64,000 nt of DNA, taken from assembly GCF_005885635.1 (NCBI RefSeq), contig NZ_VATY01000005.1, positions 186,001 to 250,000 of the forward strand. Direction: 5' to 3'. Below the pieces are notes generated by a model. The model searched no databases, was not told the origin of the DNA, and saw only the letters and a list, made by a program, of their open reading frames with translations. Positions 215 to 45,251 of the stretch are shown piece after piece. The position numbers and the translations under genes were made by a program. Numbering within the stretch: position 1 is the first letter of the stretch; each line of letters opens with the position of its first letter. Source of the DNA: Maribacter algarum (ex Zhang et al. 2020). Lineage in GTDB: Bacteria; Bacteroidota; Bacteroidia; Flavobacteriales; Flavobacteriaceae.

Positions 215-796
215 ATGAAAAAAGTGGTTACGTTTATCAGCATATTTTTCTTAGTTGTTTTGGTTTCATCTTGTGCCGAAAAAACTGCTCCGCCGGAAGT
301 TTTATTTCAAAAGGAATCAAAAGATTGGTTTAGCGAGGGGCATGCGGAATGGAAATACGTCAAGAATGAATTGATAGGAAGTTTAGATAGTGGTTCAGGA
401 TTCGTAATGACCAATAAGTCCTACTCCAATTTTGTACTGGAACTGGAATTCAAACCAGATAGCGCCATAAACTCTGGAATTTTTATCCGTTGCAAGGAGA
501 ATGTTATTTCAAATACAGACTGCTATGAAATCAATATCTGGGATTTGCACCCCAATCAGGACAATCGCACTGGATCAGTGGTAACTCGATCAAAACCTTT
601 GGAAAAGGTTGAAACCCTAGATAAATGGAATAGCTATAAAATTAGGAATGACAAAGATCATCTTCAAGTATGGGTCAATGATATAATGACCATAGATATT
701 AAAAATAAAGACCTTAGTGATGGGCCGATAGGGTTACAAGCCGCAGCATCTGGGAAGATTTTATTTCGGAATGTGAGGCTTACTCCTTTAGAATGA
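215..796 (+). CDS. DUF1080 (3-keto-disaccharide hydrolase family) lipoprotein
   Basis: This is a 193-residue lipoprotein: the signal peptide ends in VSSC with the acylated Cys at about residue 20. The rest is one DUF1080 / 3-keto-disaccharide hydrolase domain, a concanavalin-like beta sandwich. It shows the typical order: an FELELEFKP-like strand, NSGIFIRC, a DCYEINIWD segment, a W-N-S-Y-K-I strand, then GPIGLQAA and a terminal FRNVRL strand. Members act on 3-keto-glycosides or simply bind sugars at the cell surface. It starts 24 bp after the preceding gene on the same strand, so the two may be co-transcribed. The substrate cannot be read from the sequence. Confidence 0.85.
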   Translation: MKKVVTFISIFFLVVLVSSCAEKTAPPEVLFQKESKDWFSEGHAEWKYVKNELIGSLDSGSGFVMTNKSYSNFVLELEFKPDSAINSGIFIRCKENVISNTDCYEINIWDLHPNQDNRTGSVVTRSKPLEKVETLDKWNSYKIRNDKDHLQVWVNDIMTIDIKNKDLSDGPIGLQAAASGKILFRNVRLTPLE

Positions 797-798
797 GT

Positions 799-1245
799 TT
801 AATCCCATACAAATTTCCAACTTCCGTCGGGTTGTCTTTTCCAAACCGTGTGGAATGTGCCCGTATTTTCTTTCTTTGTGCCGTTTGAATCTACAGTAGT
901 AAAAACATATCCACCATAGGTGTAGGCCATATCGCCGGAACTACTTACGTCAATAAAATCAGGCTGCCAGGTCAGGGTTTCTCCTGGTCTGCTATCATTT
1001 CGATACCAATCACCAATCGCTTTTGGCCCTTGAATTACTTTACCACCCTTTCGAATTACGCCTGTTGGCGCTGCGAATTTTTCGAATGCAACGGCAAGGC
1101 CCTTTTCTTGTGCCAAATCATTAAACTCCTGTTCGACCGCCTTAATTTCGGACTTCCATTTTTCCATTTCATGAGTTGCGGTACGCTCTTTACAATTGCT
1201 TAAGAATAGCAATACACAAAATAAGAAGGCAACGATTTTTTTCAT
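799..1245 (-). CDS. SnoaL-like / DUF4440 lipoprotein
   Basis: A 148-residue protein with a lipoprotein-type signal (Cys at about residue 18, LSNC) followed by a helical segment and a cone-shaped SnoaL/NTF2-like fold of the DUF4440 type. Visible family features are the first-helix EFNDLAQEKG motif, the RKGGKVIQGPKAI segment, the central AYTYGGYVFT strand and the closing TVWKRQPDGSWKFVWD strand. Such domains are small-molecule binding or isomerase-like modules, and no catalytic residue can be assigned here. It converges with the DUF1080 gene with only 2 bp between stops, and heads away from the DoxX gene 16 bp upstream on the same strand. Confidence 0.8.
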   Translation of the reverse strand: MKKIVAFLFCVLLFLSNCKERTATHEMEKWKSEIKAVEQEFNDLAQEKGLAVAFEKFAAPTGVIRKGGKVIQGPKAIGDWYRNDSRPGETLTWQPDFIDVSSSGDMAYTYGGYVFTTVDSNGTKKENTGTFHTVWKRQPDGSWKFVWD

Positions 1246-1261
1246 GATTGTGAATTAAAGG

Positions 1262-1618
1262 TCAATCAGCTGAAATTTTATGCAAATAAATATTTGAGAT
1301 AACCAGCAAGGCCACTAAAACCATATTGATCATGGTTATAAAAAAGGGGTCTTTATGTGCCGTATGTGCAATGATGGCTGTCAGGAAAAAGAGTGCGATA
1401 CCTACATAGGCCCATTCTTTTACTTGAAGAGGTATTTGCGGAACTAGAATTAGAACCACCGCAATCACTTTTAAAATGGCTAATTGAACCCTGAAATGAT
1501 CGGGGAAGCCCAGATTGCGCACACCGTCAATTGTACCTTTGCTAAATAAATAGGTATACGAACTCCAAAGAAGAAAAAGTGATAGTATTCCAGTAGTTGT
1601 CCAATAGATTGTTTTCAT
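1262..1618 (-). CDS. DoxX-like membrane protein
   Basis: This 118-residue integral membrane protein has four predicted transmembrane helices and matches the DoxX-like (DoxX_2) pattern: a first helix followed by a VRNLGFPDHFRVQLAILK segment, then LVPQIPLQVKEWAYVGI and a last helix. DoxX relatives are associated with thiol and redox stress, but the biochemical role of this subgroup is not established. The stop of the antibiotic-biosynthesis-monooxygenase gene is 2 bp upstream, so the two are almost certainly on one mRNA with the SnoaL-like gene. Confidence 0.8.
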   Translation of the reverse strand: MKTIYWTTTGILSLFLLWSSYTYLFSKGTIDGVRNLGFPDHFRVQLAILKVIAVVLILVPQIPLQVKEWAYVGIALFFLTAIIAHTAHKDPFFITMINMVLVALLVISNIYLHKISAD

Positions 1619-1620
1619 AA

Positions 1621-1911
1621 TTATCCGATATGGGTCAATTCTTGAAGTGTAAATTTTTCCACAGAACCTTCCGTAGCTTTTAAGTATTCTGCGATATGTG
1701 GGCTGGCCAAATGTTTTTCCAATAGTGTTTTACTCTCCCAATTTTCATGGAAAACGAAAAGGTTCGGATTTTCATTATCCTGATGTAGGTCGTAGTTTAT
1801 GCAGCCTTCTTCCACTCTTGTTGGCGCAATAAGTTTTAAAAGTTCGCTTTTTACCAGTTCTCTTTTTTCGTTTTTTGCTAGTATACTAGCGATAAGTGTT
1901 AGTTTACTCAT
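1621..1911 (-). CDS. Antibiotic biosynthesis monooxygenase (ABM) domain, putative quinol monooxygenase
   Basis: A 96-residue single-domain dimeric alpha+beta barrel protein of the ABM family (YgiN-like). The pattern is typical: LTLIASILAK strand, a helix with ELLKLIAPTRVEEGCINYDLHQD, then LFVFHENWESKTLLEKHLASPHI. Relatives act on quinols or other small aromatics without a bound cofactor. It has no signal peptide, so it is cytoplasmic. It is the first gene of a tight three-gene minus-strand unit with DoxX and the SnoaL-like lipoprotein. Together these suggest small-molecule or redox stress handling, which is an inference from context. Confidence 0.85.
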   Translation of the reverse strand: MSKLTLIASILAKNEKRELVKSELLKLIAPTRVEEGCINYDLHQDNENPNLFVFHENWESKTLLEKHLASPHIAEYLKATEGSVEKFTLQELTHIG

Positions 1912-1963
1912 GATTCTATTTGGAATAAAGTGATGTTATTTTTTGTGGTGAAATTTTTCTTGT

Positions 1964-4465
1964 CTACGACAGGTTAACAATCAACCCCTCATCAGGAGGC
2001 AAAACACCGGCACAAACCAGTGGATGTAATGCAACCAGTTCATGCAAGCCATTTAGTTGTTTAAATTTAAGCCAACTTTTCGTTTTTGCCGTGGTCTTCA
2101 TGAGAAAGCTTGTCGTTTTTTGGTCAAAACGTTCCGCTCCCCATTCTTTCATTCGTTTTTGAATATGTCCCGGGGCAAAGAAAAATTTGCTTCGCTCTGA
2201 AATGATTCCTTCTTTGGGTTTCGCATTCGCCCAGTGTGTTAATCCCACGTTACTTGTAAATTTCATTTGGTCACCTAAATGCGTATGTAGCGCAGCCAAT
2301 ACATCTTGATTCCCCGACATATCAACAATTACAGTTGGTATCCTGGAATCAATACTAGTAACTTCTTTATAAGTCAAACAGTGGTTGTAGATATTTAAAT
2401 TCTTGACGGTTTCTAAATTCCTTCGAGAGGTCACACCAATGACATTAGGGGCATTTTCATCGGATTTCAATGCATACCCTAATCCTGTACTTGTTTTACT
2501 ACTCGCACTGAGAATAATTAGCTGTTTCGCACCATACCATTCCTTTTCCTGTAAGGCGTCCCATAAACAAAAAGAAGTCAGATGCAGCGGAAATAACAGC
2601 ATACGTTCTCTATCATTTTGTGAATTGTAGTTTTTCTCATTATGTACCCTTCGATAAATATTATAACCAACAGGCAATTCTGAACGATGAGGTGAACCAT
2701 CTATGAACCTTTTTTCCTTACAACCCACAGGTTTCATCTTTAGATATTTTGCTGGGGGGAAATATCCAAATAAACGGTCCCCTATAGGAATTTCATCCGT
2801 TTTGGATTCAACAACAGATGCAAATCCCCAAACAGGAATCACCCCCCAACCATCTGTATTTTCTCCCACTGGTGGAAAGAATTGCCAATAGCCTATCGTA
2901 TCACCAGCAACGGCATAGGTGATATTATTAGCAGTATAGGCGAACTTTTCGACCTTCACTAATACATCGCCTTCATCCAGTTTGAGTTCAGAAGATGGTG
3001 TTTCCACAATACGATTTCTAATAAAAATATTTTGGTTTACCTGAAACTGTGGATTTTCAATTTCAGAATTCTCTATTTCATCTAGCTTTGAAATAAATTG
3101 TTCGAGCCGCATCATTGCAGGCATCGAGGCACTGCGCATTCTTTTTAAAAGAGCCATTTTATCGGCATCCTTTTTATCCACATTGTTTACTAGTCTACCA
3201 AAACCATTCAGACGATTCGTAACTAACCACTTTCGGAGATCTTTATCCTTCGACCATATAAATTGGTTGGTCAATTGAGCGGACAACATTTTTATCCAAT
3301 CGGTATCATGGTTTGGGAGAAGCACTACTTGACAAAGCGTATTCTTTGTTTTGTCATCTCCATAATGTGCTTCGACATAGGCTATAACCGATGCACTAAA
3401 AACAGGTTGGTATGAGCGAACGGTTTGTGGCGTTATCAAGCCATCTTCAAATATGGGACGAATGTCGTGTTGCGTAATTGCGGTTGCCGAGCAATCTATA
3501 TGAATATGGCCTGTAGAAGTTGGAATGGCCCCCCTATCCATGATAATTTGATTTGTTTCCAAACGTTGAACCCTTCCCAGACGAATTATGTTCCTGATTT
3601 TTCTAAGTTCTACCAATTCCAATTGGCTAACTGTTGCCCCATGAAACATAGTTGGCCGAATATTTTTATCCAAACGTAAGAATACGCCGGCTTCTGCAAG
3701 GTTATAAAATAAATCAGGAATTGAGTTCGCCCTAGGAATTACCTCTAATTGTGCCGCCATTGAACCAATTGAAGTTTCAAAAAATTCATCTGTAGGCTGA
3801 GTGTTTTTACGGTCAAGTAGCCATGCATCTCTTGAGACAATCCAAGTGATATCGTTTGGATTAACCTGTTTTTCTAAAAGCCAAAGACAAGCATCTATAC
3901 CTGTTTTACCACCTCCAATAACTACATAACCTTTTGGAGCGTTCTCAACTTTGGGTAGATCATTTAATGGCATAAATTGTACACCATCTTCAATTGCAAA
4001 ATTAGGGGTGTGAGTTGCAGGAACGCTTGTTCCTAAGATTGTAGTGTCGACTACTTTCTTATTCACCTTTACCAGTTGTTTCTCACCTGTTTCAAAGGAT
4101 TCAAACTCACGATTGCCTTTGTAATTACAGTTAGGAAAGTATTTTACCCTTCCTGAGGACAGGAAAGTATTCTGCATGACGTCTTCATAATAGGCATTTA
4201 TTTCTGAGCCTTTTGCCAGGCTATACAATCCCTTGTTGGTACCTGTCTCATCCTTACGACCGTTGCTTAATTCTTTTGAGCTTACGCCATAGAATTGTGA
4301 AGGCTGGTGCAAGGTTACAAAGGGATAGGCAACATTCCAATGCCCGCCAGGGTTTGCATAACGGTCTATCATAATGATATTGGCATCTGTTTCTGATAAT
4401 AAAGTATCAACGAAGGCCATTCCGACCGCACCGCTACCAATGACTAAGTAATCCGTTTCTAGCAT
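1964..4465 (-). CDS. FAD/NAD(P)-binding oxidoreductase fused to a DUF2855 domain
   Basis: I chose the ATG at 4463-4465 (833 residues). The longer frame begins with TTG, and the Rossmann strand LVIGSGAVG starts right after the ATG. Residues about 1-470 form an FAD-dependent oxidoreductase: a dinucleotide motif GSGAVG at about 10-15 and a second nucleotide-binding motif VIGGGKTG at about 182-189. Residues about 478-833 match DUF2855, a medium-chain-dehydrogenase-like domain of unknown function (NIFIRNRIVETPSSEL, AYTANNITYAVAGDTIGYW). It has no export signal. The fusion implies two linked redox steps on one substrate, which is inference. It is followed 49 bp upstream on the DNA by the gluconolactonase-like gene, in the same direction. 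Confidence 0.75.
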   Translation of the reverse strand: MLETDYLVIGSGAVGMAFVDTLLSETDANIIMIDRYANPGGHWNVAYPFVTLHQPSQFYGVSSKELSNGRKDETGTNKGLYSLAKGSEINAYYEDVMQNTFLSSGRVKYFPNCNYKGNREFESFETGEKQLVKVNKKVVDTTILGTSVPATHTPNFAIEDGVQFMPLNDLPKVENAPKGYVVIGGGKTGIDACLWLLEKQVNPNDITWIVSRDAWLLDRKNTQPTDEFFETSIGSMAAQLEVIPRANSIPDLFYNLAEAGVFLRLDKNIRPTMFHGATVSQLELVELRKIRNIIRLGRVQRLETNQIIMDRGAIPTSTGHIHIDCSATAITQHDIRPIFEDGLITPQTVRSYQPVFSASVIAYVEAHYGDDKTKNTLCQVVLLPNHDTDWIKMLSAQLTNQFIWSKDKDLRKWLVTNRLNGFGRLVNNVDKKDADKMALLKRMRSASMPAMMRLEQFISKLDEIENSEIENPQFQVNQNIFIRNRIVETPSSELKLDEGDVLVKVEKFAYTANNITYAVAGDTIGYWQFFPPVGENTDGWGVIPVWGFASVVESKTDEIPIGDRLFGYFPPAKYLKMKPVGCKEKRFIDGSPHRSELPVGYNIYRRVHNEKNYNSQNDRERMLLFPLHLTSFCLWDALQEKEWYGAKQLIILSASSKTSTGLGYALKSDENAPNVIGVTSRRNLETVKNLNIYNHCLTYKEVTSIDSRIPTVIVDMSGNQDVLAALHTHLGDQMKFTSNVGLTHWANAKPKEGIISERSKFFFAPGHIQKRMKEWGAERFDQKTTSFLMKTTAKTKSWLKFKQLNGLHELVALHPLVCAGVLPPDEGLIVNLS

Positions 4466-4513
4466 AAATTTTTTAAATTTTTTGGATTTCAACAAGATTC
4501 AAGAACTCTTCAC

Positions 4514-5428
4514 TTATCTAATTCCGTTCACATTCATCTCTAGGGTATATACCGAATCCATGGCCGTGATAAATAAGATATCTTGATTTGGACCACCAAA
4601 GGTGACGTTGGCTGTCCATGCTTCCGGAATTTTTATGTGTTCGATTTGTTTACCGTTCGAATTAAAAACCGTAACGCCATTGCCCGTAAGATACACATTG
4701 CCCTTATTATCTATGGTCATTCCATCTGAGCCCATTTCACAAAAAACTCTTTTGTTTATTAGGCTTCCATCCGCTTGTATGGAATAAGAATATGTTTTCT
4801 TGTCCGAACTAGAACCCGGGTACCCAATATCAGCAACATAAAGGGTTTTTCCATCCGGAATACCAATAATGCCATTGGGTTGGGAATAATTTTCTGCCGC
4901 AATGCTTATTTCCTCATTATCAGGACTAAGATAGTACACACGTTTTGGGATGGTATCTTGAGTACGATTCCAATACGGCCTTTTGTAATGGGGGTCTGTC
5001 AGGTAAATACCTCCCTTAGTATCAATCCAAAGATCATTTGGACCATTAAGTTTCTTATTTTCAAAATCTTTAACAAGTACGGTAATATTCTTTTCAACAT
5101 CAATACGCCAAATCTCATTTTTTTCATCAGCACAAGCTATGAGATTTCCATCAAGGTCAAAATAGAGTCCGTTGGAACGACCGCTAGGTTTCATCCAATC
5201 AGAAACGGAATTGTCACTTGCATCCCATTTAACGATTCTATCATTGGGTTGGTCTGTAAAATAAACATCACCATTTTTATCAACCGCAGGGCCTTCCGTA
5301 AAATCATAACCATCGGCTACCAGAGTTAATTCAGCGCCTTCTTTAATAATGCTTGTAGTCTGTGCTTTGCAACTACTGAGTGTTATAAGTAAAGCAAAAA
5401 CAAATAGGGTTTTGTTCTGTGATTTCAT
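4514..5428 (-). CDS. SMP-30/gluconolactonase-like lipoprotein
   Basis: This 304-residue lipoprotein (signal ending TLSSC, Cys about 20) is a six-bladed beta-propeller of the SMP-30/gluconolactonase/LRE family. Family landmarks are FTEGPAVDKNGDVYFTDQPNDRI, GRSNGLYFDLDGNLIACAD, LNGPNDLWIDTKGGIYLTDP, QPNGIIGIPDGKTLYVAD and GSDGMTIDNKGNVYLTG. The acidic and Asn residues that bind the catalytic metal in relatives (E in TEGPA, N in GPND, D in SDGMT) are present. It probably opens a lactone outside the cytoplasmic membrane. It belongs to the minus-strand run of exported proteins at 4514-9945. Confidence 0.85.
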   Translation of the reverse strand: MKSQNKTLFVFALLITLSSCKAQTTSIIKEGAELTLVADGYDFTEGPAVDKNGDVYFTDQPNDRIVKWDASDNSVSDWMKPSGRSNGLYFDLDGNLIACADEKNEIWRIDVEKNITVLVKDFENKKLNGPNDLWIDTKGGIYLTDPHYKRPYWNRTQDTIPKRVYYLSPDNEEISIAAENYSQPNGIIGIPDGKTLYVADIGYPGSSSDKKTYSYSIQADGSLINKRVFCEMGSDGMTIDNKGNVYLTGNGVTVFNSNGKQIEHIKIPEAWTANVTFGGPNQDILFITAMDSVYTLEMNVNGIR

Positions 5429-5449
5429 TATTCATATGGTTTAATAAAT

Positions 5450-7102
5450 TCATTTTACTTTCCATCCGGGCCCTCGAACCACACGGCCTGGAAAAGAACC
5501 TGTATGTTCGCCGTCTTTTAGGACTACTGTACCGTTGACTAAAACATGCTGCATTCCTGTAGCATATTGATGTGGCTTTTCAAAAGTAGCATTGTCCTTG
5601 ATTTTAGCGGAGTCAAATACCGTAATATCGGCATAAAAACCTTCTTTTAGTGCCCCTCGTTTTTTAAGCTTCAAATTTGTAGCTGGGAGCGTTGTCAATT
5701 TATAAACAGCATCTTCCAAGCTAACCACCTTCTCCTCACGTACATATTTACCCAATAACCGCGCAAACGAGCCATAGGCTCTGGGGTGTGTGCTTTGTTC
5801 TAAAAACACACCTTCATTCGTATAAGAACCAGAATCAGAGCAAATGGACATGTAGGGGAGCGCCAATTTCTTTTTGATATTTTCTTCGGACATGGAGAAA
5901 TAAACCACCTGTATTCTGCTATTATCCTCATAAATCAAATCAACAATGGCCTCTTCAGGGGATATATTTCTTTCTTTTGCAACAGCAGCCAGTGTTTTGC
6001 CAATATTGGTTCGCATTTCCTTATTTCGGAAACCTACTAAAAGGATATTCTCAGGAGGCACATGAAAATCTACTTCGGCCATCATCTTTTTGCGCTTGTC
6101 TTTTTGTTCAATGAGTTTCATCGTCGCTCCATGGCCACCTTCTTTTGCCCAAGCGGGAAGCAATATATTCAATCCTGTAGAACTCGCATTATACATATAC
6201 ATATCAGTAGTTACTTCCAAACCTTTTTTGCGGGCCTTCTCAACCAGTGTTATAGCGGAATCCAACAAGTGCCAATTGGCATTTCCGGAAGCTTTGAAAT
6301 GATAGATTTCTGATGTGATATCAGCTTCTTCGGCAATAGTAATCAATTCTTGAACAGCATCTAGTAGGAATCCTTCTTCATCACGGATATGGGAAATGTA
6401 CATTCCGTCATACTCAGAAACTACTTTGGCCAATTCAATTATTTCATCTGTTTTTGCATGCCCACTAGGAACGTAAATTAATGAAGTTGATATGCCCATC
6501 GCACCTTCTTCCATTGCTTCCCGGGTCAACCTTTTCATCGTTTCCATTTCATAGGGGGTAGGAGGTCGATTCTCATAACCAATAGTATTCTTGCGTAAAG
6601 TGGCGTTTCCAATAAAGGAAGCGATGTTAGTAGAAACCCCTTTGTTTTCGAGATATTCAAGATATTCACCTAAAGTAGTCCATGGAATATCATATTTGAT
6701 GGTGGATTGTCCTTCCTTCATTTCCTTTTTCATCGATTCACTCAATGGTCCCATTGAATTTCCTTCGCCTAAAACTTCAAGTGTAACGCCTTGTCGAATA
6801 TCACCTTGTGACCGACCATCTTCAATTAAAGATTCATTGGCCCAACTTAGCATATTGATAAATCCGGGGGCAACTGTGAGTCCGGTGGCGTCGATTTCTT
6901 GTTTACCAATAGCATGCTGAATATCTCCAACTGCTACAATAGTATCCCCGTTGATTGCGATATTACCGGAATATCCAGGTTTACCTGAACCATCTACAAT
7001 TTGTCCGTTTTTTATTAAAATGTCATAAGTGGTTACTTCTGGAGAACAAGCTACGGATAATATAAGGCATACTATCCCAAGTATTCGAATCAAATTCTTC
7101 AT
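5450..7102 (-). CDS. D-aminoacylase-like amidohydrolase with altered metal site (lipoprotein)
   Basis: A 550-residue lipoprotein (signal ending SVAC, Cys 19) with the full length and order of N-acyl-D-amino-acid deacylases: beta-sandwich start YDILIKNGQIVDGSG, TIM barrel, and a terminal GTVVLKDGEHTG with GRVVRGP. In the family the metals are held by an HxH pair, a Cys, two His and an Asp. Here the HxH site reads L85-S86-W87, and the Cys of GNCG is replaced (GEGN, Gly 114). H238 (YISHIRDE), H268 (YHFKASG) and D423 (CSDSG) remain. The protein is not truncated, so this is a defined subfamily or a pseudo-enzyme rather than decay. Its activity is uncertain. Confidence 0.75.
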   Translation of the reverse strand: MKNLIRILGIVCLILSVACSPEVTTYDILIKNGQIVDGSGKPGYSGNIAINGDTIVAVGDIQHAIGKQEIDATGLTVAPGFINMLSWANESLIEDGRSQGDIRQGVTLEVLGEGNSMGPLSESMKKEMKEGQSTIKYDIPWTTLGEYLEYLENKGVSTNIASFIGNATLRKNTIGYENRPPTPYEMETMKRLTREAMEEGAMGISTSLIYVPSGHAKTDEIIELAKVVSEYDGMYISHIRDEEGFLLDAVQELITIAEEADITSEIYHFKASGNANWHLLDSAITLVEKARKKGLEVTTDMYMYNASSTGLNILLPAWAKEGGHGATMKLIEQKDKRKKMMAEVDFHVPPENILLVGFRNKEMRTNIGKTLAAVAKERNISPEEAIVDLIYEDNSRIQVVYFSMSEENIKKKLALPYMSICSDSGSYTNEGVFLEQSTHPRAYGSFARLLGKYVREEKVVSLEDAVYKLTTLPATNLKLKKRGALKEGFYADITVFDSAKIKDNATFEKPHQYATGMQHVLVNGTVVLKDGEHTGSFPGRVVRGPGWKVK

Positions 7103-7130
7103 AAGGATTTTATTTTCAGTTGGTTGATGA

Positions 7131-7967
7131 TTAGAGATTTCCTAAAAACTCCATATTGTGTTTCATGCTTTCTAGCGGCGTACTGGCATACTCTTCTTGT
7201 TCGATAAAAATATGTTTTACTCCTGATTCTTTTTGATTTGCCATCATAGTTGGAATGTCGAGGCTACCTTTCCCAAATTCCGTGCTTTCCATTTTGGTCA
7301 TGTTCATATCCTTCAAATGCCAAAGCGGAAAACGACCAGGATACTTTTTGAAATAATCCAACGGGTCTTTTCCGCCAACGATTACCCAGCCCAAATCCAA
7401 TTCCATATGGACCAAATCTGGCTCAGTATGATCCATTAAGACATCGTATAAAACTTCGTCATTTTCAGCTTCGAATTCGTATTCATGATTGTGATAGCCG
7501 AACTTTAAACCTTGTTTTTTACAAGATTCACCGGCTTTATTGAAAGCATCAGCTACTTTTTTGTAGTTATCTACCGTTTGCCCTTTGCTAGGCATTGAAG
7601 AACAGATTAGATACTCTTGACCTGAAGCGACTGCCTCTTCCATGGTTTTATCAAAACTGTCGTCTAGTGCAACATGACCACTGGTAAGTTTCATTCCTAA
7701 GGCATCACATGTATCTTTCATTTCCTTTGGGGAGAGTCCATAGTAATGGCCTTCGCGACTTCTTGCCGATTCTATTTTTTTCAATCCGATGGAAGCTATT
7801 TTTTCCAGAGTTCCTTTTGCATCATTGGCCATTTCATCTCGGAATGAATAAAGCTGCACCCCATATTGCTGCGATTCCAAGTAATTAGCAAAAGCGCAGG
7901 AAGGTAATAGGATAGTTCCCGCAGTAAATAATCCTGATTTAAATAAAAACTCACGTCTGGTATTCAT
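7131..7967 (-). CDS. Exported sugar phosphate isomerase/epimerase-like TIM-barrel protein
   Basis: A 278-residue protein of the xylose isomerase-like / AP endonuclease 2 TIM-barrel family. The N-terminus (TRREFL, then a hydrophobic stretch and LLPSC) is a Tat-type export signal with a possible lipobox Cys at about 24. Barrel features include QLYSFRDEM, a GYHNHEYEF strand with metal-type His and Glu, MELDLGWVIVGG, and the terminal HIFIEQEEY. Exported members of this family are common in Bacteroidota catabolic clusters and act as epimerases or isomerases on modified sugars. The exact substrate is unknown. It lies between the D-aminoacylase-like and DUF3500 genes with short gaps (28 and 14 bp). 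Confidence 0.85.
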   Translation of the reverse strand: MNTRREFLFKSGLFTAGTILLPSCAFANYLESQQYGVQLYSFRDEMANDAKGTLEKIASIGLKKIESARSREGHYYGLSPKEMKDTCDALGMKLTSGHVALDDSFDKTMEEAVASGQEYLICSSMPSKGQTVDNYKKVADAFNKAGESCKKQGLKFGYHNHEYEFEAENDEVLYDVLMDHTEPDLVHMELDLGWVIVGGKDPLDYFKKYPGRFPLWHLKDMNMTKMESTEFGKGSLDIPTMMANQKESGVKHIFIEQEEYASTPLESMKHNMEFLGNL

Positions 7968-7981
7968 AAATAAAACTGGTA

Positions 7982-9007
7982 TTAGTTGTGGTGCCTTTTG
8001 TAATGTTCTCTAAGTATATCTTCTCCGTAGTCATTTGTCAAATCCCGAACCACCGCATGAGCGTGATTTGCGTTGTTTTGTGTATTGTCATATTCAATGA
8101 GCAGTGTAGGACCTTGAATTCTGTAATAATGTCCAGTACCTGGTTGAAGACTCCCCGCCCACGCGAAGGTCAGGTTATCGATTCCGGAGTCCTTTATCTT
8201 TTCCCAAAAACTGGATTCAAAATGAGGCTCAAAGGTTGACAGATAAACATTCAATAATTGGAGCAGTACCTCTTTCTGGTCTTCTGATAAGGCCGTATAA
8301 GAAATACCCTCGGGATATAATTTCTCTACCTTTCGGTGGTTTGCTGAGCTAACATCTAAGGGTGCTTCTTCTGTAAATCGTGTCACCTTCAATTGTGTTT
8401 CATTCATTGAATTAATAAGTTGAAAACCTAATTCTGCCTCCTTCTTTAAAACCTCTTTTTCTTCTTGATTAGTAGTTTTTATAATACCTGGGTTAGTACC
8501 AAAGAAAGATGGTGTTGAAGCGCTGATTTTTCCTTCTGCGGATGTAAAGTTCAATGAAATGTGATGTCCTTCAAATCGCCAGCCCCATGGCGCTTTTGAG
8601 GCGGGGTCACCGAAAATGCAGAAATGATAATTCAAAGGATCTCTTCTTGGTCGACCATCTGGCATTTTATCATTATCGTCGTTTTCAATAATGCGAAGGA
8701 CTTTTTCAAGAGCTATAATTTCTTGTGTTTTTCTATAACCTTCTTTGCCTAATGAAGACTGCAGTAAATCCAATGCTGCTGCTTTTTGTTTTTCATCGAA
8801 ATCATGAAACGTCGGCCCCTTTCTAGGAATGGGCACGTAATTCATGTTGAAACGCTCTTCGTCTTCCAGTTCAAAAAGTACTTTTTCCTTTATTTCATCT
8901 GATAAGAGATTTAGAAAAGTAGTTGCTTTTTCAGAAAGGTTTTGGGCCGTCATGTGAAAGGTCAACCCACATAAAATTAGGCACAGAAGTATTTTTTTAT
9001 ATTTCAT
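7982..9007 (-). CDS. DUF3500 family secreted protein
   Basis: This 341-residue protein has a signal peptide ending near TAQ and then a single DUF3500 domain. The family hallmark WGWRFEGHHISLNFT is visible near the middle, followed by PSFFGTNPG and, at the C-terminus, HYYRIQGPTLLIEYDNTQNNANHAHAVVRDLTNDYG. The conserved His residues (GHH and HAHAV) suggest a metal or substrate site, but no reaction is established for the family. It is embedded in the operon-like series of exported proteins, with 5 bp to the propeller gene upstream. Confidence 0.85.
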   Translation of the reverse strand: MKYKKILLCLILCGLTFHMTAQNLSEKATTFLNLLSDEIKEKVLFELEDEERFNMNYVPIPRKGPTFHDFDEKQKAAALDLLQSSLGKEGYRKTQEIIALEKVLRIIENDDNDKMPDGRPRRDPLNYHFCIFGDPASKAPWGWRFEGHHISLNFTSAEGKISASTPSFFGTNPGIIKTTNQEEKEVLKKEAELGFQLINSMNETQLKVTRFTEEAPLDVSSANHRKVEKLYPEGISYTALSEDQKEVLLQLLNVYLSTFEPHFESSFWEKIKDSGIDNLTFAWAGSLQPGTGHYYRIQGPTLLIEYDNTQNNANHAHAVVRDLTNDYGEDILREHYKRHHN

Positions 9008-9945: not shown

Positions 9946-10050
9946 TTGGTGTGCTGTTCATTTTCAATCTTTTAAAGATAACCAAAAATACACTTCCGAA
10001 AGGGTGAAGGAAAACCATTGTGATTTGTACTTTTACCGAAAGCAATTTCG

Positions 10051-10824
10051 ATGAATTCAAGAGAAACCCAATTAGCCGCTTTTGACCGCTTACTCACTAT
10101 AAAGGATGAACTTCGGGAGCAATGTCCGTGGGATAAGAAGCAAACTATGCAAACCCTTAGACACCTGACCATTGAAGAGACTTATGAATTGGGAGACGCC
10201 ATTTTAGACAATGATTTAGAGGAAGTCAAGAAAGAGCTAGGCGATATTCTTTTACATATTATTTTCTATGCCAAAATAGGAAGTGAAACTAAAGACTTTG
10301 ATATTGCCGATGTATGCACAAGTATTAGTGAAAAATTGATTAATCGACACCCTCATATTTATGGAGATGTGACGGTGGAAGATGAAAAGGATGTAAAGCG
10401 AAATTGGGAGAATTTAAAGCTTAAAGAAGGAAAGAAAAGTGTTTTAGAAGGAGTACCAAATGGATTACCGTCCCTGGTAAAAGCCAACCGCATTCAAGAT
10501 AAAGTTTCTGGAGTTGGTTTTGATTGGGAAAAACCTGAACAAGTTTGGGAAAAAGTTCAGGAAGAACTGGCAGAGTTTCAATATGAAGTAAAAAAGCAAG
10601 ATACTGAGAAGATGGAGGAGGAGTTTGGTGACGTTCTTTTTTCAATGGTGAATTATGCCAGATTCTTAGATATAAGTCCCGAAAATGCTTTGGAACGCAC
10701 AAACAAAAAATTTATAAAAAGGTTTCAATATTTGGAGAATAAGGCCAAAGGATTAGGTAAATCTTTAAAAGAAATGACTTTAGAGGAGATGGATGTTTTC
10801 TGGGAAGAAGCTAAAAAAGTTTGA
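10051..10824 (+). CDS. mazG: Nucleoside triphosphate pyrophosphohydrolase MazG
   Basis: A 257-residue protein of normal MazG length (about 263 in E. coli) with two all-alpha MazG domains. The N-terminal one starts at FDRLLTIKDELREQCPWDKKQTMQTLRHLTIEETYEL, with the metal-binding EExxE-type and ELGDILLHIIFYAKIG motifs. The C-terminal one has the active EELAEFQYE and EEEFGDVLFSMVNYARF motifs. It hydrolyses NTPs to NMP and pyrophosphate, cleaning the nucleotide pool. It is cytoplasmic. The start ATG at 10051 fits the conserved N-terminus. The MATE gene follows after 22 bp. Confidence 0.95.
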   Translation: MNSRETQLAAFDRLLTIKDELREQCPWDKKQTMQTLRHLTIEETYELGDAILDNDLEEVKKELGDILLHIIFYAKIGSETKDFDIADVCTSISEKLINRHPHIYGDVTVEDEKDVKRNWENLKLKEGKKSVLEGVPNGLPSLVKANRIQDKVSGVGFDWEKPEQVWEKVQEELAEFQYEVKKQDTEKMEEEFGDVLFSMVNYARFLDISPENALERTNKKFIKRFQYLENKAKGLGKSLKEMTLEEMDVFWEEAKKV

Positions 10825-41914: not shown

Positions 41915-41940
41915 GACTTAACCCCAAATAAATATATACC

Positions 41941-42072
41941 ATGATTGTATTAGCATCTTTAATTCCTGCAGTAGTTCTTACGACAATGCTTTTAAGAGTT
42001 AAAAAACAAACGAAAAAATTAGAGCCTATTAAAGTAAGGGTTCAGAATGATAGAAGACAGTTTCGGTCTTAA
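41941..42072 (+). CDS. 43-residue single-helix membrane peptide
   Basis: A short frame ATG-TAA encodes 43 residues: a hydrophobic N-terminus (MIVLASLIPAVVLTTMLL), then a strongly basic tail (RVKKQTKKLEPIKVRVQNDR). The predicted form is one membrane helix with a cytoplasmic basic tail. It begins 26 bp after the secreted basic protein gene and ends before the terminator, which supports a real co-transcribed gene. I know no family for it, and the paralogous locus at 25.6 kb has no counterpart. Confidence 0.5.
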   Translation: MIVLASLIPAVVLTTMLLRVKKQTKKLEPIKVRVQNDRRQFRS

Positions 42073-42089
42073 TAATACAAAGTCCCCCT

Positions 42090-42120
42090 CTTAAGCCGTT
42101 TCCTAGCGGTGTGGCTTAAG
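42090..42120 (+). repeat. Inverted repeat after the 43-residue peptide gene
   Basis: CTTAAGCC (42090-42097) and GGCTTAAG (42113-42120) are perfect complements with a 15-base loop, 17 bp past the stop. There is no long T run after it, so it may be an mRNA 3' stabiliser or a weak terminator ahead of the stronger one at 42158. Confidence 0.55.
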
Positions 42121-42157
42121 AATTTTGTCACCTATCAATACCAATATTAATTAGTTA

Positions 42158-42206
42158 AGCATCGAACGATTCCCTGAGGGGAGGTTTGGTGCTTTTTTCT
42201 TTTTAT
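42158..42206 (+). terminator. Rho-independent terminator of the small-peptide operon
   Basis: AGCATCGAAC pairs with GTTTGGTGCT (two G-U pairs), with an inner TCCC/GGGA stem, followed by a T-rich tract. It ends the plus-strand unit of the two small peptide genes. Confidence 0.8.
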
Positions 42207-42286
42207 CATGTTTTAAGCGGATTTTCCTCGCTTTGCGACTGCTAAAATTATTATTTTCTTTACGTACTTCTCTTGCGATGGAGGTA

Positions 42287-42724
42287 CTATGCAACTTTCG
42301 TTGTACTCCTCTTTTTAGCTTTAATACTATTTGTAATTAACATATAGACTGCGTGGGGCAACATAAAAATGGTAATACCTGAATTTGGCACCATATAACA
42401 ACCAAGTAGCACAATTACAATATAACCCACAGTAAAATAATGCGGCAAAACCTGTTTCTGTTTTTCAATAGAATGTACCAATAGGCCCAAGGGAATGAGG
42501 AAAATACCGAAATATAAAAACCAAAATGCAGCAAAATTTTCGAAATTCGTATGACCTACAGCCGCAGGTAATTCTTCCATACCATCACTGACTATAAAGA
42601 AATATGATTTTGAGAACTGAAGCATCTGTTTTTGAAAACCATCGGGAGAAAAGGCAAATTGTGTATGTAGTAGACCGATTATTATAATTAATATTCCGCT
42701 TGTAATTTTTTTAATAATTCTCAT
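42287..42724 (-). CDS. Four-helix membrane protein, DUF6463-like
   Basis: A 145-residue membrane protein with four hydrophobic segments and an N-terminal IIIIGLLHTQFAFSPDG stretch. It resembles proteins annotated DUF6463, which are often found beside Crp/Fnr or similar regulators. No catalytic motif is evident. It is the gene downstream of the Crp/Fnr regulator, 71 bp apart, and a 16-bp palindrome lies in that gap, which suggests direct control by that regulator. Confidence 0.65.
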   Translation of the reverse strand: MRIIKKITSGILIIIIGLLHTQFAFSPDGFQKQMLQFSKSYFFIVSDGMEELPAAVGHTNFENFAAFWFLYFGIFLIPLGLLVHSIEKQKQVLPHYFTVGYIVIVLLGCYMVPNSGITIFMLPHAVYMLITNSIKAKKRSTTKVA

Positions 42725-42779
42725 ACTGTATTTGTATTAAAAGGTAGTGACAAAACTACTTTTTCATACAGTACTTTCT

Positions 42780-42795
42780 TTTGACCTAGGTCAAA
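42780..42795. promoter_or_regulatory. Perfect 16-bp palindrome, candidate Crp/Fnr operator
   Basis: TTTGACCTAGGTCAAA is a perfect palindrome placed between the stop of the Crp/Fnr-type gene and the start of the DUF6463-like gene, 56-71 bp before the latter's ATG. It has the TTGAC-N4-GTCAA layout of the Crp/Fnr class of binding sites (Fnr: TTGAT-N4-ATCAA). That the adjacent regulator binds it is inference. Confidence 0.6.
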
Positions 42796-43377
42796 TTATT
42801 CTTTTGAGGCTCTAATTCTGCTCAGTGTTTCTTGTGTGATTCCTAAAAAAGAAGCAATATCTCCCAAAGGTACTATTAACTCTATTTTTGGGTACTGTTT
42901 AATTAAGCTTTGGTAACGTTGCTTAACGGTTTTAAACTGAAGGGAAAACATTCGATGTCTATACTGTACAATTACCTTTGACAATACAATCCTAAATAGA
43001 TGTTCAAAATCATGATGCGTATTACACAATATTTCAACATCTTCTTTATTAGTTTCCAATAGAATACAGTCTTCCATAGTTTCAATATCATGAAGACTGG
43101 GTTCATCTGTAAAATAACTAGTACTAGACGTAATAAATTCATTTTTGAAGGCAAACCAGTCCATGATTCGTTTACCATCTTTTAAGTAATAAGCTTTTAG
43201 TGAACCTTCTAAGACAAAAAATAATTTGTGCTGTCGTTGTCCTAGATTAATTAAGTGTGTTCCTCTTTTATATTTGGAAACAGTATACTTAGTACTCCAA
43301 TCTACTAATATATCCCCTGTCAAATCACAGTAGTTTTGAGCTATTTGATGTGCGATTTCGTTTAAATTTTTGCTCAA
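42796..43377 (-). CDS. Crp/Fnr family transcriptional regulator
   Basis: A 193-residue regulator with a cyclic-nucleotide-binding-type beta roll (YKRGTHLINLGQRQHKLFFVLEGSLKAYYLKDGKRIMDWF) and a short C-terminal helix-turn-helix (IVPLGDIASFLGITQETLSRIRA), the usual form in Bacteroidota. No Cys cluster for an iron-sulfur centre is seen. The start codon appears to be TTG (43375-43377), since there is no in-frame ATG upstream before a stop. The bases around that start contain CAACGGTTGAGC, identical to the edge of the repeat at 44468, so the 5' end may have been shaped by that repeat family. Confidence 0.85.
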   Translation of the reverse strand: MSKNLNEIAHQIAQNYCDLTGDILVDWSTKYTVSKYKRGTHLINLGQRQHKLFFVLEGSLKAYYLKDGKRIMDWFAFKNEFITSSTSYFTDEPSLHDIETMEDCILLETNKEDVEILCNTHHDFEHLFRIVLSKVIVQYRHRMFSLQFKTVKQRYQSLIKQYPKIELIVPLGDIASFLGITQETLSRIRASKE

Positions 43378-43461: not shown

Positions 43462-43661
43462 GCACCACGACGTCTCGGCTATGATTAGTACGGGACTAAA
43501 GGGCACTTTTGTTTCCGTTTAAGCAATTAGCCGAATCTTTTTGTTTGTTTTTATTTTTTCTTTTTTAAAGCCAAATCCAAAAGATTTGGCAGACTTTCTA
43601 AAAATACACAGACCTTAGCTTTATAGCCCAAAACCCGTATTAATTATAGCCATTGTTGTGC
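43462..43661. repeat. Long imperfect palindromic repeat, copy A (cassette-site-like)
   Basis: This occupies most of the 334-bp gap between the Crp/Fnr gene and the DUF6090 gene. It is a 200-bp element whose ends are complementary: GGCTATGATTAGTACGGG (43477-43494) against CCCGTATTAATTATAGCC (43634-43651), 16 of 18 pairs plus two G-T. The outer ends are GCACCACGAC and ATTGTTGTGC. In the middle is a hairpin GCCAAATC-CAAAA-GATTTGGC (43570-43590) and an ATCTTTTTGTTT tract. It is related to copy B at 44468-44664 along its whole length. The remaining gap sequence (43378-43461 and 43662-43711) shows nothing recognisable. Confidence 0.8.
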
Positions 43662-43711
43662 TTTAGTTATTTTTCGTTCATATTCCTTTTTGGTCTATTC
43701 AAATTCTAAAA

Positions 43712-44443
43712 TCAATTAATACTTGAAAGGTAATTATTAATTATTTCAAGATTACTTTCAGCCTGTTTAAGAGCTTCAATTACTATTCTACGTTGAGCAG
43801 ACCAATTATGCTTAGTATTTCTTAAAATTCCGATAAATTCAATATCGTTGATAATATAGTTTAAATGTGATATGTCTTTAGGTCTTTCTAATTCTGTCAT
43901 TTCTAATGGAAATCCGTGTTTAATAAGATAATCGCGAAGTAAATTTAGACTGTAAAATGAAAGCCCTTCATAAAACTGATTGTTTGACTCAACAGAGTAT
44001 GTAGAATAATAAGTAGTCAGATTATTAGTTAAACCATCAGGTAGCAGTTCGGATTTTGGGTGTTTATTTAATTTGTTATATCCAAAATTTATAGTAGTAA
44101 GAGAGCTAACTCTATGAACTCGTGAAATATTATTCAATAATGAGTCAACAGGCATTATGTTGCCATTGGTAAGTAAATTATCAAGGTTATTAATAAATGC
44201 TTCTGAGAATTTGATTTCCTCTCTAAGAGAAAGAATGTCTTTATTGAGGTCACTACGTATTTCTTTAACAGTTTGTTTTAATTCATTTTTGTAGGTTACA
44301 TTCTGGTTCCAATTATTAAGACTTAATGCAATTAAAATACCAACAACGACAAGAACTATTTCTCCAATCGCATATTTCAGATACTTTCCAGTTTTGCCTT
44401 CTGAAAGTAAGTTTTGTCTAATTTTTCTAAAGAATTTTATCAT
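43712..44443 (-). CDS. DUF6090 family single-pass membrane protein
   Basis: A 243-residue protein starting MIKFFRKIRQNLLSEGKTGKYLKYAIGEIVLVVVGILIALSLNNWN, the hallmark of DUF6090: a short basic cytoplasmic start, one transmembrane helix (about 26-45) and an extracytoplasmic helical domain. Function is unknown; flavobacteria often carry many copies. The gene visibly has more A and T than its neighbours and is enclosed by repeat copies A and B, whose facing ends (GTTGTGC and GCACAAC) are exact complements. That makes it look like a single-gene mobile unit. Confidence 0.88.
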   Translation of the reverse strand: MIKFFRKIRQNLLSEGKTGKYLKYAIGEIVLVVVGILIALSLNNWNQNVTYKNELKQTVKEIRSDLNKDILSLREEIKFSEAFINNLDNLLTNGNIMPVDSLLNNISRVHRVSSLTTINFGYNKLNKHPKSELLPDGLTNNLTTYYSTYSVESNNQFYEGLSFYSLNLLRDYLIKHGFPLEMTELERPKDISHLNYIINDIEFIGILRNTKHNWSAQRRIVIEALKQAESNLEIINNYLSSIN

Positions 44444-44467
44444 TGGTTATTTGTTAGTCATAATGAA

Positions 44468-44664
44468 GCACAACGGTTGAGCTATGAACAGTAGGGGGGC
44501 AAACTAGCGTTTGCTTTGCGCCACGCACATAGCGAAATCTTTTTGTTTTGATTTATTTTTTCCTGTCCAGAGCAAAATCCAAAAGATTTTGCGGACTTCA
44601 TAAAAATATGCAAACCATGCGATTAAGCCAGAAGCCCGTATTGTTTATAGGTTTTGTTGTACGC
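44468..44664. repeat. Long imperfect palindromic repeat, copy B (cassette-site-like)
   Basis: A 197-bp element related to copy A. The arms CTATGAACAGTA-GGG (44482-44496) and CCCGTATTGTTTATAG (44635-44650) pair with the same two G-T positions and one bulge. The central hairpin GCAAAATC-CAAAA-GATTTTGC (44572-44592) keeps the loop of copy A while both stem sides have changed together. It ends in GTTGTACGC (44656-44664), 6 bp before the stop of the DUF1877-like gene. It fills the gap between the two minus-strand genes. Confidence 0.8.
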
Positions 44665-44670
44665 AGTTTT

Positions 44671-45132
44671 TTACCCCCAATTTATTGCAATTCCATCGTC
44701 CATTTCAGATGCCTTTTCAAATGCCTTCTGATACGTTTTTATGTGAACAAAGATGTATTCCCAATCATAGTCCATCTCCGCCCTATATACGTAATGTTCT
44801 GTCATTTTTTTTCGGTCATAATGCTTTTTCAAACCATTATTTATTATTTCTTGAAATAACTGATTTATAGGTTTTACTTCTTTAGACTTAACAAAAAGAT
44901 TATCTAATGAGTTTAAGATTTTTGTATCTGTAGTGTCCGCTTGTTTTAGAATATACTTTGCAATTGCCCAACACTTGTCCATTGGAAATACCGTATCATT
45001 TTCCACGTGATATTTTCCGTTAATACTTCCGTAATTCTCGTCCAGATATTCAATGGCTTCGTCCTGATTTAGTTTCATTAAATCATCGATTCGGTTGTCC
45101 GATACTCGATATAATTCACAAATCATTCCCAT
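44671..45132 (-). CDS. DUF1877-like (YfbM-type) protein
   Basis: A 153-residue cytoplasmic protein starting MGMICELYRVSD, with a middle LDKCW-like segment (FPMDKCWAIAKYIL), then LNSLDNLFVKSKEVKPINQLFQEI and a C-terminal helical region. This pattern fits the DUF1877/YfbM family, of unknown function, though with modest similarity. The unit is bounded by GTTGTACGC on the stop side and GCGTACAAC (45177-45185) on the start side, exact complements of each other but different from those of the neighbouring DUF6090 unit. Confidence 0.65.
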   Translation of the reverse strand: MGMICELYRVSDNRIDDLMKLNQDEAIEYLDENYGSINGKYHVENDTVFPMDKCWAIAKYILKQADTTDTKILNSLDNLFVKSKEVKPINQLFQEIINNGLKKHYDRKKMTEHYVYRAEMDYDWEYIFVHIKTYQKAFEKASEMDDGIAINWG

Positions 45133-45176
45133 TCTTTTGCCTTGTATATTTTCTGGTTAATAGTTTTTCTGAAATT

Positions 45177-45251
45177 GCGTACAACAATTGGCTAAACGTA
45201 CTCAGGTATGCTTATTCCATTTTTAGTATTACTTGCAAAATAAAATTTTGC
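45177..45251. repeat. Truncated third copy of the palindromic repeat (copy C)
   Basis: It begins GCGTACAACAATTGGCTA, like the outer arm of copies A and B, and ends in a hairpin GCAAAAT-AAA-ATTTTGC (45235-45251) with the same stem as copy B. The second arm is missing: the 3' end of the amidohydrolase gene begins here. It looks like a half element, so the array edge is probably at about 45250. The hairpin may also terminate the amidohydrolase mRNA. Confidence 0.5.

Follow-up and report, generated by a model that had tools for sequence, protein, structure and literature searches.

The island described here lies at positions 43,462–45,251 of the window, the 64,000-nt stretch of the Maribacter algarum genome (5.1 Mb in 20 contigs) that corresponds to C16:186001–250000. 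It comprises two accessory genes on the minus strand, encoding a DUF1877 protein of 153 aa (44671–45132; Pfam PF08974, E 4.1e-11) and a DUF6090 protein of 243 aa (43712–44443; PF19578, E 1e-6), in agreement with the identities given in an initial annotation. The repeats of ~200 bp that this annotation had described around the two genes are real, and covariance-model boundaries put both copies where it had placed them: copy A at 43465–43661 and copy B at 44468–44662, 78% identical across their longest ungapped stretch of 92 nt. Read along the minus strand, each unit runs from a tag beginning with GTT through the gene to a complementary tag ending in AAC, and then into a hairpin site of 195–197 nt.

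On this basis, we delineated two putative cassettes, both on the minus strand. Cassette 1 (44475–45185) consists of the DUF1877 gene and most of the site formed by copy B (attC B; minus strand as top strand; R'' core GTACAAC at 44656–44662, R' core GTTGTGC at 44468–44474), with end tags GTTGTACGCAAT and ACTGCGTACAAC. Cassette 2 (43472–44474) consists of the DUF6090 gene and most of the site formed by copy A (attC A; R'' core GCACAAC at 43655–43661), with end tags GTTGTGCTTCAT and CTAAAGCACAAC. This is the last site of the island, also on the minus strand, and its terminal R' core (GTCGTGG, 43465–43471) is decayed, reading GTC instead of GTT. Covariance model R1 scored attC B at 208.9 bits and attC A at 184.7 bits, each copy being itself one of the 24 from which it was built. 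The facing ends agree with those originally quoted, alike within a unit and different between units: in the DUF6090 unit, GTTGTGC (44474–44468) faces GCACAAC (43661–43655), and in the DUF1877 unit, GTTGTACGC (45185–45177) faces GCGTACAAC (44664–44656). Complementarity extends to 10 and 11 of 12 positions, respectively. The claim that repeats enclose both genes holds for the DUF6090 gene, which lies between copies A and B; the right end of the DUF1877 unit is instead an attI-like half-palindrome, with no third full repeat. This left junction (45183–45218, minus strand; half-palindrome at about 45186–45218) is an imperfect palindrome, AATAAGCATAC-CTGA-GTACGTTTAGCC, followed by AATT|GTT.

The genes flanking the island are 3.3 kb apart in M. 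algarum, whereas 10 of 11 congeners have them at a distance of ~180–345 nt; for the remaining congener, the second flanking gene was not found within the stretch examined. Of the empty sites that the initial annotation had proposed to look for, none in the strict sense, with a single site replacing a site-gene-site arrangement, was found; the 10 congeners show the flanking genes lying close together without the island. Also within the 3.3-kb gap are genes for a Crp-like protein of 193 aa and a protein of 145 aa (together 42287–43377), located between attC A and the gene that adjoins an amidohydrolase gene in congeners. This pair may be a further cassette after loss of its attC, or a separate insertion; no closing attC was seen by eye at 41915–42286. 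Crp-like genes also occur, as judged by eye, between sites of the C16 array described below (L030:3774–4358 and L029:9795–10370). At gathering thresholds, Rfam gave no match in the window or in loci L030 and L031, and tblastn detected no recombinase remnant in the window (best E 0.06) and nothing convincing at the ectopic sites.

When searched against its own genome, the 1790-bp island sequence gave 35 matches, itself included, and the covariance model from 24 copies gave 50 rows representing 49 distinct sites (one row was the reverse strand of another, and two sites are cut by contig ends). These sites form arrays of 12 at 50–71 kb of C16, 14 on C19 and 11 on C20, and occur in nine other places including the window. 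The expectation that similar repeats would occur elsewhere with differing genes between copies was therefore borne out; the repeats are neither confined to one locus nor tied to constant genes, either of which the initial annotation would have taken as a mark of ordinary intergenic sequence. The longest ATG-initiated open reading frame runs in the sense of the array in 29 of 33 intervals between sites of this genome, and for 15 of the 20 cassette proteins scanned Pfam gave a match with E ≤ 0.001 (one of these under its own cut-off), including hydrolases, an amidase, DJ-1/PfpI, an aminotransferase, an acyltransferase and members of the beta-lactamase superfamily, among others. A second DUF6090 gene lies between two sites on C20.

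The C16 array starts directly after a gene for a 394-aa tyrosine recombinase pointing in the same direction. A second recombinase gene (375 aa) is found near the end of contig C12, with a cassette and then a shorter site between it and the break of the contig. The description "integrase-less" consequently suits the window and fails for the genome, in which each of two recombinase genes is followed by cassettes; the search for a common tyrosine recombinase was positive both here and in relatives of the same family. In the window, two sites 807 nt apart with no adjoining integrase fit the definition of a CALIN (at least two attC within 4 kb, no adjoining integrase), with sites of the present kind and not those of the published attC models.

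If a free circular cassette brings its own two ends together, the end tags should be complementary within a unit. We examined this in 60 pairs of consecutive sites, 150–4000 nt apart, from 86 sites in 11 genomes (M. algarum and 10 relatives); the 86 were taken from 137 covariance-model rows after removal of rows that were partial, duplicate or on the reverse strand, and of some further ones (including L084:18453, L037:4998, L029:2353, L071:7363, L031:1836 and the L073 rows). Across seven variable positions, 376 of 420 were complementary, versus a shuffled mean of 155 (sd 11), and none of 5000 shuffles of unit partners reached 376. At least six of the seven positions were complementary in 52 of the 60 units, while the two tags of one and the same site matched at only 36%. 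The cassette reading of the units is correct, and neither the differing cores nor the orientation, the latter initially regarded as setting the units apart from integrons, does so, since a match of ends within the unit is what integron cassettes predict. At the 11th end position of 160 units defined more loosely, A stood against G in 117, the reverse in 2, and another combination in 41, with the same polarity as the stem mismatches described below; the DUF6090 unit of the window is without this wobble.

The sites in which cassettes end have the make-up of attC, with complementary end tags and the four boxes R'', L'', L' and R'. Among the 189 sites whose stem was good, 118 were 116–127 nt and 50 were 180–191 nt long. 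Across 97 loci, attC lengths lay near 121 and 186 nt, in steps of ~64 nt, with few near 50–57 nt; these short ones were more frequent in the loci of other families. In 46 short sites, 95.8% of cells in the L stem were paired versus 72.1% after shuffling, 12 of 16 stem pairs showed changes on both sides with pairing kept, and the covariation score was 0.597 as opposed to 0.157 in shuffled and at most 0.15 in slid alignments. The consensus stem is continuous when G.T pairs are counted, with one extra base in some short sites (alignment A5, column 26). One stem pair was G.U on the bottom strand in all 46 short sites, and another in 33.

These wobbles have a strand polarity. With the sense fixed by the recombinase and no demand made on polarity, top-strand mismatches of A opposite C numbered 195 versus none reversed in 90 sites of the family, and 76 versus 14 in 42 sites from other families. 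Mismatches of C opposite A, which also yield a G.T wobble on the bottom strand, showed a weak bias in the family (13 versus 4) and none elsewhere (10 versus 10). The duplex is thus nearly symmetric, yet one strand folds with fewer mismatches. Predicted folding energy, a weak test of strand, favoured the bottom strand in 21 of 28 sites.

Neither recombinase of M. algarum reaches the TIGR02249 (IntI) cut-off of 265 bits (193 and 218 bits). No frame of this genome does, and sub-threshold matches of this kind were also present in all 14 control genomes. NCBIfam NF040815, named "site-specific tyrosine recombinase/integron integrase" (cut-off 220 bits), was passed by the C12 recombinase (238.6 bits) and nearly so by that of C16 (211 bits), so that a link to integrons is already implied in automatic naming. 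Alignment with three IntI (A3) showed that the IntI-defining insertion, a domain near patch III, is absent. In line with this, the K-DR to H-LRH distance was 58–59 residues in all 42 frames of the present kind measured, compared with 100 in all 8 IntI frames measured (33 IntI loci tried) and 66 in the only Xer measured. In a tree of 42 of these recombinases, 11 IntI and 3 Xer, retained by a length and motif filter from 42, 34 and 15 loci, respectively, each group fell on one side of a branch, with support of 96/67 for the 42 and 100/99 for IntI; given the few IntI and Xer rows, the 96/67 support and a flagged long Xer branch, the tree does not fix the branching order of the three groups. The recombinases do not belong to the Xer class that resolves chromosome dimers: they lie opposite the three Xer rows and have arrays adjoining them.

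Most of these recombinases carry ~80 extra N-terminal residues. Among 39 members searched with Pfam, this domain matched DUF5710 in four (best E 2.9e-5), HARP in three (best E 4.6e-5) and DUF7397 in three (best E 0.0011), and its profile gave a best E of 0.14 against the PDB; with matches in 3 of 39 members, HARP is just a lead. The domain is absent from L122–L124 and L126, of which L126 adjoins an array. In this locus, from an Owenweeksia MAG (448–8722 and 9953–10777), the recombinase has 275 aa and the attC sites run away from it in a divergent arrangement. Such a divergent layout of integrase and array is that of classical integrons.

Of 40 recombinase loci, 24 have a tagged R' core 15–230 nt beyond the recombinase gene and 8 have it further off; in the other 8 it was not found. 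The flank of this first core is either common to the members of each clade, as judged by eye, or palindromic. Recombinases of the C16 type often have ATATAAC-A|GTT before the first core (by eye), and matches without mismatch to the pattern TTAGTTGTCATNNAACAAGTT are confined, within this genome, to the C16 recombinase and two ectopic cassettes. Those of the C12 type have a palindrome followed by approximately CAATT|GTT, whose letters vary between species with symmetry kept. A script ranked the palindrome first in 15 of the 40 loci, with a score exceeding that of every one of the 60 shuffles in 9 of the 15. By eye, the window junction and three other ectopic junctions resemble the palindromic attI of the C12 type, and the window junction is like the attI sites following clade-B recombinases of relatives, most of all that of G005.

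Among 299 genomes of the family, the recombinase was detected in 193 and sites in 208: both in 162, sites only in 46, the recombinase only in 31 and neither in 60 (p = 7e-13, Fisher test, kinship ignored). At the cut-off used, the recombinase was thus missing from 46 of 208 site-positive genomes, and from 14 of the 96 with at least five site matches. In the class as sampled, it was present in 198 of 395 genomes. To describe the arrangement of recombinase and array, we counted unit pairs within 9 kb on each side of 29 recombinases from 25 one-contig genomes of the family (the matches listed with coordinates, plus the rest under the same rule); one tag may be counted with several partners. Strict pairs numbered 143 downstream in sense (25 of 29 loci), with 1 upstream and 4 antisense. 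A looser count gave 160 downstream (28 loci) versus 16 (11 loci), and 31 in one shuffle of each whole locus. For other families of the class, 20 of 22 fitting loci were used (minus-strand matches among those listed, with at least 9 kb of contig downstream), leaving out G813:C14 and the second G842 locus and retaining two G1024 loci. These gave 43 strict pairs downstream (15 of 20 loci), none upstream in sense and 3 antisense; once the polarity demand was dropped, there were 84 downstream in 18 loci and 9 upstream in 7. Two of the 20 loci (L217 and L221) have no open recombinase frame at their centre, and no strict unit was present at 4 of the 29 recombinase loci of the family and 5 of the 20 from other families. 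Separately, a contig end lay at most 6 kb downstream of the recombinase in 9 of 11 loci (L116–L126), such that draft assemblies may hide much of the arrays.

Evidence for cassette movement came from units sharing the same start. Among 289 distinct strict units of 97 loci, we identified 12 such pairs, which are not independent (four copies in L070 account for six and three copies in L158 for three; one is in L153, and two link separate genomes). Mean identity was 1.00 in the first ten bases from GTT and 0.93–0.99 over the next fifty, as against 0.32–0.68 in blocks before GTT; the upstream 60 nt differ in 11 of the 12 pairs. By BLAST, the shared stretch begins 0 to 28 nt before the core, and it may start before the core because neighbouring sites look alike near their ends. 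Copies at different positions within L070, L153 and L158 are 98.8–99.3% identical, with two of the L070 copies sharing 98.8% over 584 nt and ending at the next GTT. Between genomes, the cassette beside the attI of G156 was found again inside an array of G076 (86% over 381 nt, from the core itself). Relatives of the DUF1877 gene occur in 6 of the 299 genomes of the family, M. algarum included, and carry the tags of cassette 1 in G228, where the protein is 45% identical, and in G206, where two pieces are 38% and 55% identical. In L232 the gene belongs to another unit, and no cassette tags were seen around it in L231 or L234. G228 contains three DUF1877 copies with the same tags (L233, L236 and L238), the next units differing between L236 and L238.

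Taken together, these data make it very probable that the units of the window are mobile gene cassettes of an integron-type system, in which tyrosine recombinases of a distinct family, with Xer and IntI as relatives, carry out cassette excision and insertion at the GTT of the R' core. The island would then be a pair of cassettes located ectopically, at an attI-like site of the contig that also carries the array recombinase and ~156 kb away from it, with the local recombinase presumably doing the cassette work. Joining of the two end tags in the free circle would keep them complementary, and the crossover would fall at G|TT. The bottom strand of attC may be recombined as a folded hairpin, with the fixed G.T wobbles (A.C mismatches on the other strand) choosing the strand and the extra N-terminal domain possibly helping to read the fold. 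As far as sequence comparison reaches, the arrays, the end tags, the adjacency and orientation of recombinase and array, the cassette boundaries, the recurrence of the same cassette in other genomes and the covarying stem are direct observations.

An alternative, which we consider unlikely, is that the sites are recombined as ordinary double-stranded DNA, with L'' and L' being unequal protein-binding sites and the stem a by-product of two facing recombinase arms. A symmetric protein can indeed select for inverted repeats, the fixed unequal bases of L'' and L' could represent contacts made with double-stranded DNA, and folding energies separate the strands poorly; nevertheless, neighbouring stem pairs change on both sides and stay paired, and the end tags are complementary while free in sequence. 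It is clearly less probable that the arrays are fossils and that the recombinase family has another role today. The decayed core of copy A and the recombinase loci lacking units could be read in this way, but the nearly identical copies in L070, L153 and L158 point to recent movement or duplication.

Mobilisation of canonical integron cassettes (CALIN) by a true IntI acting in trans would share the same cassette logic, and outside this class IntI of the canonical kind is widespread in the phylum: 105 of 395 genomes pass the TIGR02249 cut-off, and among the matches it is frequent in other classes and nearly absent from this one. We regard this as very unlikely, since the arrays follow a different recombinase, the genome has no frame over the IntI cut-off, and the 108 genomes with IntI matches at E 1e-50 or better comprise 107 of other classes, one of this class and none of this family, whose share of the sample is only partly listed. 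Finally, the repeats are palindromic and AT-rich, and their short sub-hairpins look terminator-like, as might be expected of ordinary intergenic repeats (terminators, REP or MITE-like elements) flanking genes by chance; this has almost no probability in view of the unit-specific complementary tags, the one-sided placement downstream of the recombinase and the boundaries at the core.

The integron-type system favoured here resembles IntI integrons (class 1, the Vibrio superintegron) in its single-gene cassettes, R''-L''-L'-R' sites, GTT core, within-cassette complementary tags, a recombinase and a putative attI at the head of the array, and insertions elsewhere. It differs in a recombinase without the IntI insertion and mostly with an N-terminal domain, which points along the cassettes (divergent in L126), in an R arm of ~12 nt, in fixed G.T wobbles, and in the palindromic putative attI of one clade. 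The R arm of IntI integron sites is 7 nt. Strand choice in IntI integrons rests on extrahelical bases (PMC2727003). The window island itself resembles a CALIN in having two cassettes and no adjoining integrase, but its sites are of the present kind and the genome has two array recombinases. Should the proposed mechanism hold, a further parallel would be the XerCD-mediated integration of CTXphi, in which a tyrosine recombinase without an I2-like domain acts on a folded single strand; unlike the present system, CTXphi encodes no recombinase (PMC4792948). Bacteroidota are listed among the phyla with integrons (PMC9668308, PMC8618304), and the integrons of Bacteroidetes, the same phylum in a broad sense, were found with IntI profiles (PMC9024848), which sets them apart from those described here. 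We found no description of this cassette system in the open-licence papers searched. CTXphi integration is not known to involve a cassette array.

The initial interpretation therefore stands as regards mobile single-gene cassettes, and falls as regards the label "integrase-less", which fails for the genome, and a difference from integrons by orientation. The real departures from integrons are the recombinase without the IntI insertion, the wobble-coded stem and the palindromic putative attI of one clade. Because the IntI-specific domain was looked for and is absent, we do not file the system as an integron in the strict sense; it has an integron-like architecture and probably an integron-like mode of action. 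More broadly, we see an even chance that it represents a second, IntI-independent integron lineage extending through the class Bacteroidia, in which a folded attC is read without the I2 insertion, perhaps via a HARP-like N-terminal domain, fixed G.T wobbles encode the choice of strand, attC falls into discrete length classes, and one clade has a palindromic attI whose sequence varies, such that recognition of both partners may involve folded DNA.

Integrons are one of the main bacterial routes to collect and shuffle genes, and they are detected by IntI profiles and trained attC models. If another recombinase drives cassettes, searches with IntI profiles would miss the system, and with about half of the sampled genomes of the class carrying this recombinase, a large cassette pool may be unread. 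The system would also give a natural test of how an Xer-like recombinase can act on folded single-stranded sites without the domain held necessary for it, and of how, in the absence of extrahelical bases, a choice of strand can be encoded.
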